Under the pieces are notes generated by a model that searched no databases, had not been told where the DNA came from, and saw nothing but the letters and a program-made list of their open reading frames with translations. 64,000 nucleotides of DNA from assembly GCF_022698145.1 (NCBI RefSeq), contig NZ_JALDAX010000004.1, forward strand, positions 248,001-312,000. The letters run 5' to 3'. Position 1 is the stretch's first letter. Each line of letters opens with the position of its first letter. This DNA is from Streptomyces spinosisporus. GTDB taxonomy: Bacteria > Actinomycetota > Actinomycetes > Streptomycetales > Streptomycetaceae. The position numbers and the translations under genes were made by a program. Positions 25,153 through 39,587 of the stretch are shown piece after piece.

Positions 25153-25226
25153 GCGGGTGTAGTTTAATGGTAGAACATCAGCTTCCCAAGCTGAGAGCGC
25201 GAGTTCGATTCTCGTCACCCGCTCCA
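25153..25226 (+). tRNA. tRNA-Gly (anticodon CCC)
   Basis: The acceptor stem GCGGGTG pairs with CACCCGC, the anticodon stem TCAGC / GCTGA encloses the loop TTCCCAA (anticodon CCC, reading GGG), the T-arm holds GTTCGATTC, and CCA is encoded at the 3' end. It is followed by a terminator and then by an integrated element, for which its 3' half is the likely attachment site. Confidence 0.95.
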
Positions 25227-27659: not shown

Positions 27660-28811
27660 TTACGCCTCGCGGGCACTCTGCCGGTCTCCATCTGCCTCAC
27701 GGAGCTGTGCGCGTACCTCGGTGTCGATCCCCTGCGCGAGCCTCCGCTGATGCTTCGCCGTCGAGTGCTGGTAGATCAGCTGGGCCCGCTCCGAGGACTG
27801 GCCGGCGCGGACCATGAGGTCCTTCAGCTTGGCACCCGTGTCGGCGGCCAGGGTGTTGCCGGTGTGCCGCAGGTCGTAGAAGCGGAAGTTGTCCGGCATC
27901 CCGACCTTGGTCCTCGCCTTGCGCCACTTGCGGCCGAAGGTCGAGCGGCGGAAGGGGGCGCCCTTCTCGCCGACGAAGAGGAGGCCGTCCCGTTCCTTCT
28001 CCGCGAACCACTGGAGGTGACGACGCAGTTCCGGGAGCAGGAAGTCGGGCAGGTACACGGTGCGCTTGCCCGCCCGTGTCTTGGGGTCTCCGGTGACCCG
28101 CCTGCCGTTGGTCAGCTCCGGCGAAGCCTGCGTGATGCGCAGGGAACATTCGTCGAGATCGACACTGTGACGGCGCAGTTCCGCCAGTTCTTCCGGGCGG
28201 AGGGAGGCGAAGGCGCCGAGCAGGACCATCAGGCGCCAGCGCGGGCCCATCGCGTCGGCGAGGTCGAAGACCTGCTCAATGGTCGCGGTGGGGCGTTCGT
28301 CAGCCTCCTCCTTGCCCGCGCCCTTGATACGGCATGGGTTGCTGCGTAGGAGGTCGTCGTCGACCGCCGTCTGCAAGATGCCCTTCAGCAGGCGGTACGA
28401 CTTGGCGACCCTTGTGGCGCCGGTCGCCTTCAGGCGCTCGGCGCGCCATGTGCGGACGGAGGGCGGAGTGATCTCGTCCAGGTCCTTGTCCCCGAAGGTC
28501 GGCAGGAGGTGCAGACGCAGCAGGCCGTCGTAGCGGTCGACGGTGGTGAGGGCCAGGCCGCGCTCCTCCATCCAACGGAGTGCGTACTTCTCGAAGTTGA
28601 CCGCGCCGGCGTCCGGGTCGCGCCATACGTTGCGCTCGATGTCGGCGCGGACGAGGTTGAGCCAGTCCTGGGCGTCGGACCTGGTCTCGAACGTCTCCGG
28701 CGCGGTGTACCGCCGGCCGTCGGGGCCGATGTAGCGGGCCTGCCACCGGCCGGAGGCCAGCTTGCGTACCGTGCCGAACTCGCGCCGCCGCTGCGGCTTG
28801 CGTCCTGCCAT
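27660..28811 (-). CDS. int: Tyrosine site-specific recombinase (integrase)
   Basis: This 383-residue protein integrates the element at the tRNA. It has an AP2-like N-terminus (RKLASGRWQARYIGPDGRRY), a SAM-like core-binding domain, and the catalytic domain with Arg in LRPEELAELRR, the H-x2-R box LRHTGNTLAADTG and the nucleophile Tyr in IYQHST. It follows the excisionase gene with a TGATG overlap. Between it and the tRNA lie two cargo genes, an unusual gap since int usually abuts the attachment site. Confidence 0.94.
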   Translation of the reverse strand: MAGRKPQRRREFGTVRKLASGRWQARYIGPDGRRYTAPETFETRSDAQDWLNLVRADIERNVWRDPDAGAVNFEKYALRWMEERGLALTTVDRYDGLLRLHLLPTFGDKDLDEITPPSVRTWRAERLKATGATRVAKSYRLLKGILQTAVDDDLLRSNPCRIKGAGKEEADERPTATIEQVFDLADAMGPRWRLMVLLGAFASLRPEELAELRRHSVDLDECSLRITQASPELTNGRRVTGDPKTRAGKRTVYLPDFLLPELRRHLQWFAEKERDGLLFVGEKGAPFRRSTFGRKWRKARTKVGMPDNFRFYDLRHTGNTLAADTGAKLKDLMVRAGQSSERAQLIYQHSTAKHQRRLAQGIDTEVRAQLREADGDRQSAREA

Positions 28812-31956: not shown

Positions 31957-32571
31957 GTGCACGACCGAGACCACGAACACACCAATCAGCAGGAGACCAC
32001 CGTCGCCCCAGACAACCGCGCAGCAAGTTGTACCGGGAGCAATGCTCCCGGGATTCCCGCCCCAGGGGTGGCGGGAACAGCCCGACGCCAGGGGGCACCG
32101 GAGCCTCAGGCTGCGACCGAGGGCGGACCGCAGCAGGGAGGGGAAAGACTGGCCGAGTCCGTCTCGAAGCGACGTCAGCGCACCCGTCAGCCGACGTCAC
32201 GCAAGCGTCTGCACCAGCCCAGCTGCCGCATGAACGACGCCGAGTTCCAGCGATTCACCGAAGCAGCCGCCCACTGCCAGATGTCCAACGCCGCCTTCCT
32301 CGCCTACGCCGTCGACAAGGCCGCCCGCGACCTGACCCGCACCGCCGCCGAGATCGCCACCGAACGCCAGGTCATCGACGAGCTGTTCGCCGCCCGCCGA
32401 CACCTCGGCCGCATCCACGGCCTGTTCAACCAGATCGCCAAGGCCCTCAACTCCGGCGCCGACGCACCCCATCTGGACACCGGTGCCAAGGCCGTGCGCA
32501 GCGCCGCCCGCCGCATGGAGGACGCCGCCGATGCCCTGCTCGCCCACCGCGACGGCGGTGCCGCTGAGTGA
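31957..32571 (+). CDS. MobC-like mobilization protein
   Basis: This 204-residue protein has a disordered, Gln/Arg-rich N-terminus (1-85) and a C-terminal MobC-type domain: FQRFTEAAAHCQMSNAAFLA, ELFAARRHLGRIHGLFNQIA and KALNSGADAPH. MobC proteins help the relaxase open the DNA at oriT. GTG 31957 has GGAGAACC upstream, and the end overlaps the relaxase start by GTGA. This gene order (mobC-relaxase) is standard for mobilizable elements. Confidence 0.83.
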   Translation: MHDRDHEHTNQQETTVAPDNRAASCTGSNAPGIPAPGVAGTARRQGAPEPQAATEGGPQQGGERLAESVSKRRQRTRQPTSRKRLHQPSCRMNDAEFQRFTEAAAHCQMSNAAFLAYAVDKAARDLTRTAAEIATERQVIDELFAARRHLGRIHGLFNQIAKALNSGADAPHLDTGAKAVRSAARRMEDAADALLAHRDGGAAE

Positions 32572-34280
32572 TCCCCAGCATCCACGACCGCGGCAGCGAG
32601 ACGATCGGGCTCATCAACTACCTCTACGGCCCCGGCACTGCAGAGGAGCACATCGACCCGCACCTGGTGGCCGCCTTCGACCCGCTCACCCCCGACCCCG
32701 GCCGCGACCCGAAGGCCACCCACGAACAGCTCCAGCGCCTGCTCGACCAGCCCGTCAACGTCCTGCCCGCCGGCAAGCGCCCCGAGAAGCACGTATGGCA
32801 CCTGTCCGTGCGGGCCGCCCCGGAGGACCCGGTCCTGTCCGACGAGGACTGGACGGCCATCGCCCGCCGCATGGTCGCCGCCACCGGCATCGCCCCCGAC
32901 GGCGACGAGCAAGCCTGCCGGTGGGCAGCCGTCCGGCACGCCGACGATCACATCCACATCATCGCCACCCTGGTCCGCGACGACGGCCGCCGCCCTCGCC
33001 TGCACAACGAGGCCCGCCGCGCCCAGGCCGAATGCCGCCGCATCGAAGTCGACTACGACCTGCGCCGCGTCGCATCCGGGGACGGCACCGCCGCCAAGCC
33101 TCCCACCAGCGCCGAACGCCACAAGGCGAAGCGAGAAGGCAGGGAGCAGGCGGCACGCGAGGAGCTACGGGAGACCGTACGGCGGGCAGTGGCGGGAGCC
33201 ATGAGCGAGGAGGAGTTCTTCGACCGGCTGGCTGCCGCCGGCCTGCTGATCCACAAGCGCGTCGCACCCTCCGGCGACCTGCTCGGCTACAAGGTCGCCC
33301 TCCCGGACAACCGCAACGGCAAGCAGGAGCCGGTGTTCTACGCAGGCTCCACCCTCGCCCCCGACCTGTCCCTGCCCCGCATCCGCAAACGCTTCTCCGA
33401 CGGCCCTCCGAGTCAGGGCACGGACACCCCCTCCGCCGAAGCCCCGAGCGGCCCCGCGACAGCGCGGCGCCGGACGGCCACGGCCGTGTGGCAGACGGTG
33501 CTGGTCCTCGACGACGGTGAGGACGCCCAGGTGGCCGCGCACATCGCGGCGACTGGGGAGGTCCTGGACGCACTCGCCAAGACCTCCGCCGCCCACACCC
33601 GCGCCGAACTGCGCGAGGCCGCCTTCGCGTTCGAGCGGGCCACCCGCTCCCACATCAAAGCCGAGCGCGGACACGACCAGGCCCTGCGCCAGGCCGCCCG
33701 CGACCTCATCCACAGCGGACCCGCGCTCGGACGCGGAGAAGACGGCGCCACCACCGCGATGGCCATCGACATGCTGTTCTTCCTCGTGACCGCCGCCGCC
33801 CACTGGCACGCGAAGAAGGACCACGCCCAGCAGGCAGCCGCCGCCCACCAGGCCGCAGAACACCTGCGCGCCGCCTACCGGGCCGCCGCCGACCTCCCGC
33901 TGGGAGTGCTGTACCAGCGGGGCCGACGCCTGCCCCAGTCCCTGCGCCAACAGCAGGCCACCTGCCTTCGGGCGGCCGTGCCGGAGCTGGCCGAGCAGAT
34001 CCTGGCCGAGCCGGGCTGGCCCGCCCTGGCGGCCACCCTCGCCGATACCGCAAGGGCCGGCCACGACCCGGCCGCGCTGCTGACGGAGGCCGCCGGACGG
34101 CGGGAGCTGGGCACCGCCGACTCGATCAGTGACGTGCTGGTGTGGCGGCTGCGCCGCATGGCCGACCTGCCCGCCGACGCCACCCAGATGCCCGACCACA
34201 CTCCCACCGCGGCCAGGGGCGGCGGGCGTTCCGTCTCGCCCGCCCCGAGCCGAGACGACCGGCCCCGCAAGACGCGGTAA
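32568..34280 (+). CDS. Relaxase / mobilization nuclease
   Basis: This 570-residue protein starts MIPSIHDRGSETIGLINYLY and contains the HUH metal motif in VRHADDHIHIIATL (about residues 124-137), typical of MobA/VirD2-type relaxases that nick oriT and lead the strand into a recipient. The middle region (200-290) reads EEEFFDRLAAAGLLIHKRV, often seen in these proteins, and the C-terminal half is helical and Arg-rich. It is coupled to mobC by GTGA. The translocation ATPase is missing from the element, so transfer would need a helper. Confidence 0.9.
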   Translation: MIPSIHDRGSETIGLINYLYGPGTAEEHIDPHLVAAFDPLTPDPGRDPKATHEQLQRLLDQPVNVLPAGKRPEKHVWHLSVRAAPEDPVLSDEDWTAIARRMVAATGIAPDGDEQACRWAAVRHADDHIHIIATLVRDDGRRPRLHNEARRAQAECRRIEVDYDLRRVASGDGTAAKPPTSAERHKAKREGREQAAREELRETVRRAVAGAMSEEEFFDRLAAAGLLIHKRVAPSGDLLGYKVALPDNRNGKQEPVFYAGSTLAPDLSLPRIRKRFSDGPPSQGTDTPSAEAPSGPATARRRTATAVWQTVLVLDDGEDAQVAAHIAATGEVLDALAKTSAAHTRAELREAAFAFERATRSHIKAERGHDQALRQAARDLIHSGPALGRGEDGATTAMAIDMLFFLVTAAAHWHAKKDHAQQAAAAHQAAEHLRAAYRAAADLPLGVLYQRGRRLPQSLRQQQATCLRAAVPELAEQILAEPGWPALAATLADTARAGHDPAALLTEAAGRRELGTADSISDVLVWRLRRMADLPADATQMPDHTPTAARGGGRSVSPAPSRDDRPRKTR

Positions 34281-34302: not shown

Positions 34303-34641
34303 TCAGCAGGCAGCCTGGAGGCGCATCTCTTCCTCGATGGCACGGGCGATTTCTGGCCACGGTGCGCGCAGCGCACCGACGAGCGACCAGTAGCCGTACA
34401 TGTCCCGGAGCAGAGCACCGACGCCAAGGCGTGCGGCATCTCGGTCGATGACGCCTATGACACGCCGGGTGGTTCCTCCCGCTCCTCGGGCAGCTGGGGT
34501 GATCCCGTTTCCGAGGAGGATCGTGGTCGTACGAATGTCATCCAGCGTGGCCGGCGGCGCAGTCCCGGCGATGCTGCCGTAGATCAGTTGGTGCCAGCGT
34601 TCCTGAGTGCGGGCCCGTGCCTCGGTGGTCGGCTCGGTCAC
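34303..34641 (-). CDS. Hypothetical protein at the end of the WbqC operon
   Basis: This 112-residue protein starts at GTG 34641, overlapping the stop of the WbqC-like gene (GTGA). It has helical segments (RTQERWHQLIYGSIAG, ALLRDMYGYWSLVGAL, PEIARAIEEEMRLQAAC) and no known domain. It is the last gene of a four-gene operon and seems specific to this cluster. I cannot assign a function. Confidence 0.65.
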   Translation of the reverse strand: MTEPTTEARARTQERWHQLIYGSIAGTAPPATLDDIRTTTILLGNGITPAARGAGGTTRRVIGVIDRDAARLGVGALLRDMYGYWSLVGALRAPWPEIARAIEEEMRLQAAC

Positions 34642-35432
34642 ACGTGGGCTCCCGGATCGTGAGCTTCTCGCTGGGCGGCCAGGTGTTCCGCCAGTGCATC
34701 GGGCCCGATCTTGCCCAGGGCCCACAGGCTGCTGGATCGGCGAGCCCACCGCCAGAGTGGGTCATCCACAGGAGTGTGGAAGGGCAGCACGGGAATGCCG
34801 TGGGCGTCGAAGGGGCTGGCGTCGAGGTAACGCAGACCACCAGTGCCGCACAGATAGTGGGTACTGCCGGTGGCGGCCGCAAGGTCGACGAGGCGTTCGG
34901 AGCGGCCTTGCCGGGTCGGGATCTCACTGCTGTCCCGCACCTTCCCCGCCCAACCGACAACCCTGAGCAGGGCGACCGTCGATGCCCTCGCAAGGTCGGC
35001 CACACGGTCCGAGTCGTCGAGCGCGTCCACGACCTCGGACACAGCACCCCAGTAAGGGCTGCGGCCGTAGTACTGGCGGACAAGCAGCCGGATCGTCCGG
35101 CGTGAGCGACGCGGATCAACGAGCCGCGCCTGGCTTATCAGCGTCGGGCGCCCGTGGGGAAGGTGCGTCGGGAGCGTGAGCCACTGCTGCCGGGCGGGAT
35201 CGTCCAAGGCGGCGAGACGGGCACGGTGCTGGTAGTCGCGCCGCGCGAACTGCACGTCGTCCAGGACGATCCACTGGTCGGCGGAGAACAGCTTGGCCAG
35301 GGTGGACAGCCGGGGGAACAGGTTCGGTTGGTGGATCGCGCACAGCCCACCCGACGCATCGGCGCTGGGCGGATCAACTACTGATGAGGCGGCTGTCGAA
35401 GCCTGCGCCCAAGAGGCGCTCGTAAGCGTCAT
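34638..35432 (-). CDS. WbqC-like protein
   Basis: This 264-residue protein matches the WbqC family: CAIHQPNLFPRLSTLAKLFS, DQWIVLDDVQFARRDYQHRA, and later DLAAATGSTHYLCGTGGLRY. The family occurs in O-antigen and glycan gene clusters and is thought to act in amino-acid or acyl modification of sugars, but its chemistry is poorly defined. ATG 35432 overlaps the previous gene by 59 bp and leaves about 30 extra residues before the conserved start; no better start codon exists. It is encoded in an operon with YdcF-like and Xre-TPR proteins. Confidence 0.83.
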   Translation of the reverse strand: MTLTSASWAQASTAASSVVDPPSADASGGLCAIHQPNLFPRLSTLAKLFSADQWIVLDDVQFARRDYQHRARLAALDDPARQQWLTLPTHLPHGRPTLISQARLVDPRRSRRTIRLLVRQYYGRSPYWGAVSEVVDALDDSDRVADLARASTVALLRVVGWAGKVRDSSEIPTRQGRSERLVDLAAATGSTHYLCGTGGLRYLDASPFDAHGIPVLPFHTPVDDPLWRWARRSSSLWALGKIGPDALAEHLAAQREAHDPGAHV

Positions 35433-36063
35433 GCACATCCCCCGGTACGTCCTGCTCGACGGCGAAGCCGAGCTTCGGGTACTCGATCACCCGCTGCAGA
35501 TCCCCGACGAGCATGTCGACGACGAGCTTCTCGTCGCCGATCGACTTGATGTAGTCGTCCAACTCCAGCGGCTCCGATGCACAGACGACGTCCGCCTCGG
35601 GCCACAGCTTGCGGCAGGTGGCATAGGAGCGACGCTCCATGTACGGCTTGGAGATCAGCAGCAGCGACTCGACCGCGATGCCGGCCTCGGACAGCAACTC
35701 CCTTGAGAACGTGATGTTCTGGCCGGTGTTCGCGGCCTTCGGTTCCACGAGGATCGCCTTGTCCGGGACACCCAGGCTCAGCGCATGCTCGCGGTAGTGA
35801 ACGGCCTCGCCTCGTGGGAAGCGGGCGCGGGTGGTGGGGCTGTTGCCGCCGCTGAACACCACGACCGGGAAAAGGCCGGCACTGTAGAGGTCAGCCGCTG
35901 CTGTAGCGACGCCCAGATCGTGGCTGCCCAGACCGATCGCCGCGGAGCAGGGCCGCCGCTCGTGGCCCATCTGGTGGTAGTTCCAGATCAACGTCGCGTC
36001 GTGGAACTGCTCGTCGGTGATCTGGCGCTGCTGGTGCTGCGGCACTGGCACTCCCTGGTTCAT
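35374..36063 (-). CDS. YdcF/ElyC family (DUF218) protein
   Basis: This 229-residue protein has the YdcF Rossmann-like pattern: SAAIGLGSHDLGVATAAADL, FPVVVFSGGNSPTTRARFPR, EPKAANTGQNITFSRELL and LLLISKPYMERRSYATCRK. Related proteins bind S-adenosylmethionine or act in envelope carbohydrate metabolism; no membrane helix is present here, so this one is cytoplasmic. Its start overlaps the stop of the Xre-TPR gene (ATGA), and it is co-transcribed with the WbqC-like gene. Confidence 0.85.
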   Translation of the reverse strand: MNQGVPVPQHQQRQITDEQFHDATLIWNYHQMGHERRPCSAAIGLGSHDLGVATAAADLYSAGLFPVVVFSGGNSPTTRARFPRGEAVHYREHALSLGVPDKAILVEPKAANTGQNITFSRELLSEAGIAVESLLLISKPYMERRSYATCRKLWPEADVVCASEPLELDDYIKSIGDEKLVVDMLVGDLQRVIEYPKLGFAVEQDVPGDVHDAYERLLGAGFDSRLISS

Positions 36064-37103
36064 CCTTGCTGGCCCTTTCGGATGCCCTCGATGCTGCGCA
36101 GCTGGTGGCTCAGCCCGTACTGGCGGGCCACCTGTGCCGCCTGGTCGAGGACGGACAGCCCATCATTCCGGGTCGCCGCATCCGACAGAAGGATGTGCCC
36201 GTACGCGGTGTCCAACCGCACTCGCTGCATGGGGGAGTCGACCGTGCCGGTGGTGCGTGCGATGTCGATGTAGTGCAGAGCCTGGTCCAGGTGGCCGGCA
36301 CCCCGGTGAGCCAGGGCCAGCTTCTGGTGCGCGACCGACCAGTCCTCCGGCTCGCCCAGCGTCTCGAACTCGCGGGTGGCGGCGGCCATGACTTCGGTGG
36401 CGTACGTGTTGTTGCCCTCCTTGCTGAGCGCCGTGCCCACCCAAAGGCGGGCACGGGCGCGATCCCGAGGGCTCAACCGCTCGTCGGTAGCGAGTAGTTC
36501 GTAGCTGTGAGCGGAGGCTTCGAGCTGGCCGGACATCTCTTGGACGACGGCGAGGGACAGCTCGATCTGCGCCACCCGGCGCGGGATGTCCAGTTCGGAG
36601 AACATGCCGCGCGCGGTCAGGTACGACTGGCGGGCGGAGAGCGGGCCGAGGATCGCCCCCTGATCCCGTTGGACATCGCCGAGTAGGACAAGCGAACGCC
36701 CGTACAGATACAGGCCCTTGTCGTCCAGGCGGTGCGGGTCGTGGCCGACCAGCCGACGGTTCAACAGCGTCGAGGCGAAGGAGAAATCCTGGCGACTGAC
36801 GCAGACCACGGCGCGCTCGATGTCCTCGGTCCAGGTCTCGTAGTCCGCCGGTCGCCCGCTCTTACGGTCAGGGAACAACACCGCCTCGAACCGAGCATGC
36901 GCGGCGGAGTCGGCACGGGCGAGCGCGGTGTCCAGGATGGCCTGGGTGTCGGGACGGGGCTGGGTCTCGGCACCGAGGCTTTCCCACTTGGCCACCGTGC
37001 GCAGGGCGACCCCCAGGTGCTCGGCGAAGGCGCGGGTGCTCATGCGCAGCGCGGCGCGCAGGGCGCTCGCCTCCCGGCCCGTCCACTGCTGCACGCTGAC
37101 CAT
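36060..37103 (-). CDS. Xre-family regulator with TPR-like C-terminal domain
   Basis: This 347-residue protein has an N-terminal helix-turn-helix (LRAALRMSTRAFAEHLGVAL, RTVAKWESLG) and a long all-helical C-terminus with TPR-like repeats (ARSYLTARGMF-type helices, LASAHSYELLA-type, AHQKLALAHRGAGHLDQALH). Such proteins are common Streptomyces regulators that sense a peptide or partner protein. ATG 37103 is preferred over an upstream start. It heads the left operon and faces the right operon at 37223, so it likely controls both arms. Confidence 0.85.
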   Translation of the reverse strand: MVSVQQWTGREASALRAALRMSTRAFAEHLGVALRTVAKWESLGAETQPRPDTQAILDTALARADSAAHARFEAVLFPDRKSGRPADYETWTEDIERAVVCVSRQDFSFASTLLNRRLVGHDPHRLDDKGLYLYGRSLVLLGDVQRDQGAILGPLSARQSYLTARGMFSELDIPRRVAQIELSLAVVQEMSGQLEASAHSYELLATDERLSPRDRARARLWVGTALSKEGNNTYATEVMAAATREFETLGEPEDWSVAHQKLALAHRGAGHLDQALHYIDIARTTGTVDSPMQRVRLDTAYGHILLSDAATRNDGLSVLDQAAQVARQYGLSHQLRSIEGIRKGQQG

Positions 37104-37222
37104 TGCTGACCTCCCTCCGTCATGTATGGAAGCACCCTCCGTGACCACGAGGGGCGGGAAGTGCAACGGAAGTACAACAGCAGGTCATTTCGAGGCCGTT
37201 GGCGCAGCCCGACGCTGTGGAC

Positions 37223-37639
37223 ATGGACGACGAACTCATCACGGAACGACGCCCGGTGACCGGCCCGCATGTCTTCGGCTACCTGCGCCACGTCACCGGG
37301 GGGCTGGCCCGCCACGCGGCGCTCGTCGACTGCCTGACCGAGTACTGCCGACAGCACGAACTGACGCTGTGTGGCGTCTTCACCGACCGCGAGCCGACCG
37401 TGGCCATCCGCTCCCCCGCCTTCGTCGGGCTGGTCGACGCTCTCGGACTTCCCGACACCTATGGCGCCCTGATCCCCACCCTCAGTCACCTCGGTCCCAA
37501 AGGCATCGGCACCGAACGCAGGCGGCAGATAACAACGACGGGCGCCCGCCTGATCGTGGTCCGATCCTTCAGGCCGACGGCGGCTTCCGCACCTCCTCTC
37601 GGCACGAGCCTCGGCCTCCAGCCGCAAGGAGACACGTGA
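37223..37639 (+). CDS. Serine-recombinase-like small protein without nucleophile
   Basis: This 138-residue protein resembles the N-terminal resolvase fold: HVFGYLRHVTGGLARHAALV, ELTLCGVFTDRE, FVGLVDALGLPDTYGALIP and TTGARLIVVRSF. In real resolvases a Ser follows the first strand (YxRVS); here that position reads RHVTGG, so DNA cleavage is unlikely. Related stand-alone proteins occur in Streptomyces. The stop overlaps the next start (TGATG). A DNA-binding or nucleotide-sensing role is only a guess. Confidence 0.7.
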   Translation: MDDELITERRPVTGPHVFGYLRHVTGGLARHAALVDCLTEYCRQHELTLCGVFTDREPTVAIRSPAFVGLVDALGLPDTYGALIPTLSHLGPKGIGTERRRQITTTGARLIVVRSFRPTAASAPPLGTSLGLQPQGDT

Positions 37640-38059
37640 TGTCCGTCCGTGACGCGCTGCGCAGCGCACCCATGGTCAACGACGTGTCCGGCCTGCGCAT
37701 GCTGAAGGTCGGCGACGGCTGGGACCTCGTGCGAACCCCGGCCGAGACCGGCCTCCTGGCTCTGGCCTATCTGCGGGCAATCGGCGCGATGGTCGGGCCG
37801 GTGCTCTACGACGGCCCCAACGGGCGCCTCTATTACGCCGTCCGCCCCGGCACCGCCGGATGCTGGGACGACCTGCCGGTTCGCCTCCGGCACCTGGCTC
37901 ATCGCGCCCGGTCTGGAGCAGATCGACAGCTGGTTCGGCGGCTGGTGCGAGCTGCCCGACGACGACACACTCACCGACGCCGACACGCTCCGCGCCGCGC
38001 TCCAGCACCCGTACGTCACCGCCGCCAAGGAGACAGCGGGCTCCGACGCCTGCAGTTAG
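37639..38059 (+). pseudogene. Hypothetical protein, split by a one-base frameshift
   Basis: The first part (from ATG 37639) reads SVRDALRSAPMVNDVSGLRM and GAMVGPVLYDGPNGRLYYAV up to about 37875. The clear continuation (RFASGTWLIAPGLEQIDSWF, GGWCELPDDDTLTDADTLRA) is in the next frame and ends at 38059. Removing one C near 37876-37877 joins them into a protein of about 139 residues. This may be a sequencing error or a real mutation. Similar short proteins occur in Streptomyces accessory clusters; the function is not known. Confidence 0.7.
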
Positions 38060-38115
38060 CCCCGAGACAACCGGCAGCGCCTCCCATCCTTCCGACCCCA
38101 CGCAAGGGGACATCC

Positions 38116-39237
38116 GTGGCGACCCATCTCGTCTCACCGAACACCGTCCTGGCCAACGCCCTCCACCGCGCCGAAGACGTCCTGACCCCACGCATCCTGT
38201 CCACCCCACCCGAGCGGATCGTGCTGGTCGTCGGCACCCAGATCAACGGCGCCCCGCACATCGGCACCTCCCTCGTGCAGTCCCTCGCCTTCGCCATGGC
38301 CGCCCGCCTGCGCGACCGCTTCGGCATCCCCACCGAGGTCCTCTTCAGCGCCCTCGACAACGCCCCGTACGAACTCGCCACCGACCCCGCAAGTGGTCAC
38401 CGCTACCAACGCGCCTACGCCCAGGCCCTCGGCGACCAGTCCCTGACTGACCTCGTCTCTGCCCTGTACCAACCCCTGTTCACGGCCCTGTCCCGACGCC
38501 TGGGCATCCCGTACCGCGTCGAGACCTACACCCAGCAGCAGGCCGGCGAACGCTTCCGCCGCACCTGGTTGCGGCTCCTGCCCCGCATCGACGCCGCCCG
38601 CTGGTGGCTCGCCCCCTCGACCGGCACCCCACACCTCCGCACCCCCTGCCCACGCCCAGGCTGCGGCTGGGCCGAGAAACACGCCGAACGCACCCGCGTC
38701 CACCTCACCAACCGGGAAACCGCTGAGGTCGCCGCCGTCTGCCTCCACCATGGCCCCTACCGCACCACCGTCACACCCGCCACCGGCGCCTACCTCGACC
38801 TGGCCACCCTCTACCGCAACCTCGTCAAGGAACTCGCCCTCACCAGAACGCCGACCGACGGAACCCTGCACGTCATGGTCAAGGGCGGCGACTGGGTCTT
38901 CGGCTCCCTGCTCGTCGACGAGGCCCTTCAAGCCGTCGGCCTCACCCGGACCCAGCTGCCCGCCCGCCTGTTCTGTCCGCAGGTCGTCACCGAAACCGGC
39001 GCGAAGCTCTCCAAGTCCCTCATCCGCGAAGGCCACACCCCCTTGCCCGAGGGGGCCGCCGACTGGATGCTCGACGTCCGACAATGGCCCGGCAGCGTCA
39101 CCGACTACGCCGACCAACTGCTGGCCGCAGCCAAGACCCTGCTGTCGGATCCCCGGCACTTCTTCCGCTCGTACTCCGCGGCCGAGATCGGCCGCCTGAT
39201 CACCGCACCGGCACCCAGGAGCGTCCCCGCCCCATGA
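38116..39237 (+). CDS. Class I aminoacyl-tRNA synthetase-like protein (LysRS-I-like), short
   Basis: This 373-residue protein has the class I synthetase landmarks: a HIGH-type motif in NGAPHIGTSLVQSLAFAMAA (residues about 45-65), FSALDNAPYELATDP, a zinc-knuckle-like insertion (CPRPGCGW ... CLHHG), and a KMSKS-type motif AKLSKSLIREG near residue 300. It is closest in flavour to class I lysyl-tRNA synthetase but lacks the large anticodon-binding C-terminus of full enzymes (about 530 residues). It may therefore activate an amino acid for another acceptor. GTG 38116 has AAGGGGA upstream. It overlaps the ASCH gene (ATGA). Confidence 0.75.
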   Translation: MATHLVSPNTVLANALHRAEDVLTPRILSTPPERIVLVVGTQINGAPHIGTSLVQSLAFAMAARLRDRFGIPTEVLFSALDNAPYELATDPASGHRYQRAYAQALGDQSLTDLVSALYQPLFTALSRRLGIPYRVETYTQQQAGERFRRTWLRLLPRIDAARWWLAPSTGTPHLRTPCPRPGCGWAEKHAERTRVHLTNRETAEVAAVCLHHGPYRTTVTPATGAYLDLATLYRNLVKELALTRTPTDGTLHVMVKGGDWVFGSLLVDEALQAVGLTRTQLPARLFCPQVVTETGAKLSKSLIREGHTPLPEGAADWMLDVRQWPGSVTDYADQLLAAAKTLLSDPRHFFRSYSAAEIGRLITAPAPRSVPAP

Positions 39238-39587
39238 ACGACAACTCCACCCGCGTCCGCGAACTCAACCTGTACCGCCGGTACTTCGACCTCGTCACCG
39301 CGGGCACCAAGACCATCGAGGTGCGGGTCAAGTACCCGCACCTCGCCGACCTCGCCGCCGGCGACACCATCCGCTTCCGGGTCAAAGGCACGGACGAGAC
39401 CTGCGAGGTCAGGGTCAAGCGGGTCACCGAGTACACCGACTTCGAGGCCCTGCTCGACGGCGAGGGACCGTCCAACGTCAACCCCACCGCGACCCTCGAC
39501 GAGCAGCTCGCCAACATCCGGGCCATCTACCCACCCGAGAAGGAAGCCCTCGGCGCCCTGGCCATCCATATGGAGCTCTGCTCCTGA
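39234..39587 (+). CDS. ASCH domain protein
   Basis: This 117-residue protein is an ASCH domain: LNLYRRYFDLVTAGTKTIEV, GDTIRFRVKGTDETCEVRVK and a following acidic helix. ASCH domains are PUA-like and are thought to bind RNA or nucleotides; some have ribonuclease or amidohydrolase activity on modified nucleosides. The start overlaps the end of the synthetase-like gene by ATGA, so the two are translated together, which strengthens an RNA-related role for the cluster. Confidence 0.88.
   Translation: MNDNSTRVRELNLYRRYFDLVTAGTKTIEVRVKYPHLADLAAGDTIRFRVKGTDETCEVRVKRVTEYTDFEALLDGEGPSNVNPTATLDEQLANIRAIYPPEKEALGALAIHMELCS

Follow-up and report, generated by a model that had tools for sequence, protein, structure and literature searches.

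The stretch analysed here (the window) comprises 64,000 nucleotides of Streptomyces spinosisporus contig NZ_JALDAX010000004.1 (contig C34 of a 9.4 Mb genome) and contains, at 34.3–39.6 kb, a two-armed gene set with genes for WbqC-like and YdcF (DUF218) proteins, an Xre-type regulator, a short class I synthetase-like protein and an ASCH-domain protein. Two small open reading frames (ORFs), the synthetase-like gene and the ASCH gene follow one another on the plus strand, and the overlapping regulator, YdcF and WbqC genes (arm A) run divergently on the minus strand. Our main subject is the pair formed by the synthetase-like protein, a putative amino-acid ligase (the ligase below), and its ASCH partner:

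38116–39237, plus strand: putative class I synthetase-like amino-acid ligase, 373 amino acids, GTG start, without an anticodon-binding domain
39234–39587, plus strand: ASCH-domain protein, 117 amino acids, Pfam ASCH match with E = 1.2e-12, start overlapping the end of the ligase gene in an ATGA (translational coupling)

The ligase has no meaningful match in Pfam, NCBIfam or PDB sequences. Matches to PDB entries from a plain sequence search (e.g. antifreeze proteins) were discarded as spurious, and a ligase profile found no match among PDB sequences. Both ATP-site motifs of class I synthetases are intact on alignment, the HIGH motif as PHIGT (PHxGT, H48) and the KMSKS motif as GAKLSKS (K297, K300), together with the predicted zinc ligands C178/C183/C209/H212 (Cys3His). 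All three are kept across nine divergent members of the family, among them those from Macrococcus and Pantoea plasmids, only 22–27% identical, and those of two further divergent groups, with small variations (e.g. KLSKT, KLAKS, KISKS). The Macrococcus member matches the Pfam model tRNA-synt_1f, that of class I lysyl-tRNA synthetase (LysRS), with E = 2.5e-5 and 23.8 bits, below the cut-off of 27; the window ligase does not match this model. When profiles were compared with the LysRS proteins of the surveyed genomes, the N-terminal half aligned with E = 2e-4. The best PDB fold match of the AlphaFold2 model (mean predicted local distance difference test score, pLDDT, 86.7; predicted TM-score, pTM, 0.87) is the class I LysRS 1irx (E = 2.7e-7), followed by GluRS, MetRS and BshC, and the first 50 fold matches also include MshC, CysRS and the C-terminal domain of PyrN with a glutamyl-adenylate analogue. 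The motifs, the tRNA-synt_1f match of the distant member and the structure thus assign the ligase to class I, with a LysRS-like catalytic fold.

Although class I LysRS is the closest relative in fold and shares the HIGH and KMSKS motifs, the ligase differs from it in three respects: it has KLSKS in place of KMSSS, it carries an invariant Gln at a LysRS threonine position and it lacks the anticodon-binding domain. The last point follows from the length of the protein and from the model, which stops after the catalytic core. The tRNA-recognition part of a true tRNA-charging enzyme is therefore missing, and the sole possible RNA binder is the separate ASCH protein. The host genome has its own full-length class I LysRS at another locus. 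A dedicated tRNA partner was also considered and rejected, since among 60 loci scanned for linked tRNA genes only six contained any, of no consistent type.

The ASCH assignment is secure (48.8 bits against a Pfam cut-off of 21.2, with the GxKxxExR motif of the superfamily), and the nearest PDB relatives are the archaeal ASCH proteins 1xne and 2z0t. Coupling to ASCH is obligate within the clade of the window ligase. This clade is represented by 115 distinct complete homologues from genomes, plasmids, phages and viral contigs, in which the ASCH gene overlaps the ligase gene by the four bases of an ATGA (95 sequences), is fused to it (17) or adjoins it through another junction (three); none is without ASCH. 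Chance is not a credible explanation of this adjacency, given that the host genome has a single ASCH gene above the Pfam cut-off and that 115 distinct sequences show the pair. The first-pass annotation, made from the DNA letters, had described a short class I synthetase-like protein without an anticodon domain, coupled by an ATGA to an ASCH protein, and had made its proposal depend on the ATP-binding residues; all of this is borne out. In the structural model of the fused protein, the linker and the ASCH part are poorly determined.

Residues K26, E29 and R31 of the GxKxxExR stretch are kept in at least 97% of 109 ASCH sequences. The Lys and Arg, as well as the fold, are common to the YqfB-type ASCH amidohydrolase, but the YqfB nucleophile Thr24 is replaced by Glu (Glu29), again in at least 97% of the 109 sequences (YqfB residues from PMC6972931). 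The window protein scores 19.3 bits with the NCBIfam YqfB amidohydrolase model, far below the cut-off of 93. With the Thr of the Thr-Lys-Glu triad replaced by Glu29, a YqfB-like role in N4-acylcytidine hydrolysis was rejected.

Relatives of the ligase are found in gene clusters of biosynthetic type, where the neighbouring pathways can be named by family only. Three Streptomyces genomes (loci L240, L241 and L243) encode a 45–47% identical ligase together with a PALP-family pyridoxal phosphate enzyme, an AurF-type N-oxygenase, a HemK-like methyltransferase and PhyH. L240 and L243 additionally have MFS, OCD, OTC and amino-acid ABC genes and share the order MFS-PALP-AurF-OCD-OTC-methyltransferase-ligase-PhyH; fewer genes were matched in L241. 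The ligases of these AurF-type clusters nest inside the fused ligase-ASCH clade (support 96/94) and have no ASCH partner, and have therefore probably lost it. More distant ligases occur in two other actinobacterial genomes (L266 and L267) beside alanine dehydrogenase (AlaDH)-type, methyltransferase and S-adenosylmethionine (AdoMet) decarboxylase genes, in the order AlaDH-methyltransferase-ligase-AdoMet decarboxylase, the decarboxylase having been seen in L266, with a divergent arm that contains an M20 peptidase and an Xre gene. Macrococcus plasmids (L029 and L127) combine genes for two ATP-grasp proteins, the synthetase-like and ASCH-like proteins, an MFS transporter and an Rgg-type regulator, and a Pantoea plasmid locus has the order methyltransferase-ligase-LOG-EamA-Ham1, the LOG gene being LOG-like. 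The ASCH-like proteins of these distant ligases, which adjoin the ligase in the Macrococcus plasmids and share its locus in L266 and L267, do not match Pfam ASCH; they were recognised by the shared motif and mutual similarity, that of L266 by motif and that of L267 by alignment. Taken by family, these gene contexts indicate a role in small-molecule chemistry and not in translation.

Synthetase-derived ligases that act on small molecules have precedents. In hydrazine synthetases, the MetRS-like domains activate amino acids by adenylation for transfer to small molecules (PMC11705231), and MshC and the MetRS-paralogue peptide ligases are further examples (PMC2922099). Hydrazine synthetases (MetRS-like plus cupin, e.g. 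PyrN) also resemble the present system in having a class I synthetase-like domain that plays no part with tRNA and is paired with or fused to a small barrel domain in actinobacterial biosynthetic clusters (PMC11705231), but here the partner is ASCH and not a cupin, the core is nearer to LysRS than to MetRS by fold ranking, and carriage is mostly on mobile elements. The neighbourhoods examined showed neither a cupin nor a lysine N6-monooxygenase gene next to the ligase, so that the locus does not qualify as a hydrazine-synthetase locus. The mycothiol ligase MshC, a CysRS paralogue found among the fold matches, is likewise a class I core that stands alone and joins an amino acid to a small molecule; it belongs to the CysRS family, is chromosomal and is not known to be paired with ASCH, unlike the ligase here. 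The same two families are held in PHROG as 35625, ‘tRNA synthetase’ (E = 1e-184), and 19935, ‘RNA-binding protein’ (E = 1e-43), from the phages Picard and Mojorita, where the pair is adjacent; these records are names only, with no function assigned. No description of the ligase-ASCH pair was found in the open-access literature searched. Stand-alone class I synthetase-like ligases are a known kind of protein, but the subfamily, its obligate ASCH partner and its distribution on mobile elements are not described in the papers searched.

By analogy with the hydrazine-synthetase domains, MshC and the MetRS-paralogue ligases, the most likely activity is adenylation followed by transfer to a non-ribosomal acceptor. 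The LysRS/GluRS-type core would activate an amino acid with ATP to give an aminoacyl-adenylate and pass the aminoacyl group to an acceptor, most likely a small molecule, yielding an amide or ester. The ASCH protein, with its PUA-like fold, would probably bind a nucleotide- or nucleoside-like acceptor or product at the place that an anticodon domain would occupy. We give this reading, a mobile-element amino-acid ligase with ASCH as handler of acceptor or product and with arm A as a separate module, a probability of about one half. That an amino acid might be loaded on a non-tRNA acceptor had already been proposed in the first-pass annotation, and the proposal fits the intact ATP-site motifs, the ASCH coupling, the mobile carriage and the biosynthetic-type relatives. 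Several observations weigh against it. The TM-scores of the PDB fold matches are moderate (0.47–0.50), the amino-acid substrate cannot be read from the ligase sequence, and the invariant Gln (Q42) takes the position of the lysine-contacting threonine of LysRS. Moreover, ASCH is absent from the AurF-type clusters and the Pantoea locus and is hence not required in all members, and most plasmid, phage and island copies have no further biosynthetic enzymes or exporters beside the pair. Finally, RNA binding is common among ASCH and PUA-like folds, which makes an RNA acceptor possible.

The second arm and the two small ORFs have the following features:

36060–37103, minus strand: Xre-type regulator with a possible TPR sensor part; weak Pfam helix-turn-helix (HTH) match, marginal TPR match
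35374–36063, minus strand: YdcF/DUF218 protein, Pfam DUF218 E = 5e-17, 62.6 bits against a cut-off of 27.6; PDB match to E. coli YdcF 3ca8, E = 1e-4
34638–35438, minus strand: WbqC-like protein, Pfam WbqC E = 4e-29, 102.4 bits against a cut-off of 21.3
37104–37198, no strand: divergent intergenic region, candidate operator, with direct repeats GAAGTGCAAC / GGAAGTACAAC; strongly conserved in an alignment of ten arm A loci
37199–37639, plus strand: small ORF sm1, no family match, part of the arm A module (regulator-YdcF-WbqC-sm1-sm2)
37639–38059, plus strand: small ORF sm2, frameshifted here near 37880; intact in relatives, about 143 amino acids

The YdcF-like and WbqC-like identities proposed at first stand. 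The label of a divergent Xre-TPR regulator is plausible but weakly supported, as the gene is present and divergent and the domain matches are poor. The sm2 frameshift, which the first-pass annotation had missed, is either a sequencing error or decay. The ORF at the start of the gene set as first described (34303) has no family match.

In a first survey of ligase loci, ten had the regulator-YdcF-WbqC arm, the window included, and 30 had an Xre-like regulator, nearly all with a methyltransferase gene; the remaining loci had other regulators. In the tree, the arm A loci group together as a single clade within the arm B loci (modest support, Shimodaira–Hasegawa-like approximate likelihood ratio test, SH-aLRT, 88–89), consistent with a single exchange of the left arm. 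Close copies of arm A, defined by a regulator of at least 88% identity, were found in 18 of 394 Streptomyces genomes, nine with an adjoining ligase and nine without. The nine ligase-free loci (L228–L236) contain the regulator, YdcF, WbqC, sm1 and sm2 and have different cargo in the same place, namely JmjC-AKR-APH (four loci), radical SAM-APH (four) or a Mur-ligase-like protein (one). A DUF7848 gene lies in between in eight of the nine, and a flavoprotein gene follows WbqC in several. Since half of the copies carry other cargo, arm A seems to be a regulatory module that can take up different enzymatic cargo and travels without the ligase-ASCH pair. WbqC and YdcF, which had been put forward as functional partners of the synthetase-like protein, were accordingly rejected in that role. 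The co-occurrence expected of all five genes thus holds for the synthetase-ASCH pair and fails for the WbqC-YdcF-Xre arm. In the window, arm A lies next to the pair by coincidence and may regulate transcription of the pair.

The suggestion that the set rides on a mobile element proved correct. The island that carries it is defined by the following features:

25153–25226, plus strand: tRNA-Gly(CCC), probable attachment site; a repeat of the 3' half lies at C34:317876–317969
27660–28811, minus strand: tyrosine integrase of the island, Pfam Phage_integrase E = 3e-11
32568–34280, plus strand: relaxase/mobilisation-like protein adjoining the cassette, weak MobB-type NCBIfam match

A pair of attachment sites was not found within the window alone; the second copy, exact over the tRNA part, lies about 6 kb past the window end. 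Because the 3' half of tRNA-Gly is repeated there, the cassette, to the right of the tRNA gene and some 6 kb beyond the integrase, belongs to an island of about 45 kb integrated at a tRNA gene, and integrase, relaxase-like gene and duplicated attachment site together mark an integrative element. This tRNA-Gly(CCC) is an integration hotspot: several Streptomyces genomes contain spaced copies of its 3' part.

Mobility is common in the family. Ligase homologues occur in 57 of the 394 Streptomyces genomes (E ≤ 1e-20, fragments included), on plasmids of Streptomyces, Amycolatopsis and Prauserella and in 12 viral contigs. In Picard and Mojorita, which are Streptomyces phages, the pair lies between the lysis genes and the integrase, directly before the latter. 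Of the 89 synthetase-ASCH loci surveyed, 19 contain a relaxase homologue, and 69 have a regulator of known type no more than 3.5 kb upstream. A gene resembling a PycTM effector directly precedes the pair at L024, L099 and L100, with no cyclase gene noticed beside it, and the fused ligase-ASCH gene is often immediately preceded by an AAA_28 kinase-like gene (L025–L027, L121, L242, L268 and L269).

These data bear on other explanations. The core could aminoacylate a tRNA or a modified RNA base, with ASCH as an RNA-binding module that replaces the anticodon domain; on phages and plasmids such an enzyme would tune or protect translation. GluQ-RS, which glutamylates queuosine, would be the model for this. 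The idea draws on the PUA-like fold of ASCH and the ties of several ASCH proteins to RNA, on the anticodon-domain place that ASCH occupies in the fusions, and on the names ‘tRNA synthetase’ and ‘RNA binding protein’ given to the phage copies. However, relatives both close and distant are accompanied by genes for amino-acid and small-molecule enzymes and transporters, one derived clade dispenses with ASCH, and no tRNA is linked, so we regard RNA modification as possible but unlikely. Still less probable is a module for defence, toxicity or superinfection exclusion, controlled by the regulator, in which the pair would make an aminoacylated nucleotide or deplete a metabolite during infection. Its position in Streptomyces phages, with the lysis genes on one side and the integrase on the other, its presence on plasmids and islands and the PycTM effector-like gene upstream in some loci would suit such a role, but systematic defence neighbours are missing, the relatives are of biosynthetic type, and no PADLOC model matches the window ligase, the ASCH protein or the fused protein. 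Membership of a known defence system was rejected on this last ground.

A single pathway spanning both arms, in which WbqC and YdcF would modify the acceptor loaded by the ligase, could account for the fixed gene order and the conserved divergent control region of the ten arm A loci and for their being a single clade. It is made very improbable by the close regulator-YdcF-WbqC copies that have other cargo and no nearby ligase, and by the different neighbours of most ligase-ASCH pairs. We also considered that the pair may make a diffusible or intracellular signal of aminoacyl-nucleotide type, read by the adjoining ligand-sensing regulator (Xre/TPR-like, GntR-UTRA or, in Macrococcus, Rgg). If true, phages, plasmids and islands would have a small-molecule communication circuit built from a repurposed tRNA synthetase. 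We consider this a long shot, as the upstream regulators belong to many unrelated families and may serve the mobile elements instead.

Overall, the initial interpretation of the locus is partly supported, and a mobile amino-acid ligase with an ASCH partner is the reading that we prefer. The recruitment of synthetase cores as small-molecule ligases has precedents in mycothiol and hydrazine synthetases, but the present family has no Pfam or NCBIfam model, is common on mobile elements and ties such a core obligately to ASCH, a domain of largely uncharacterised function. Once assigned, the function of the ligase would give this ASCH family a function and explain the carriage of the pair by phages and plasmids. 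The clusters with AurF, PALP, OCD and OTC would then contain an unrecognised amino-acid ligase.

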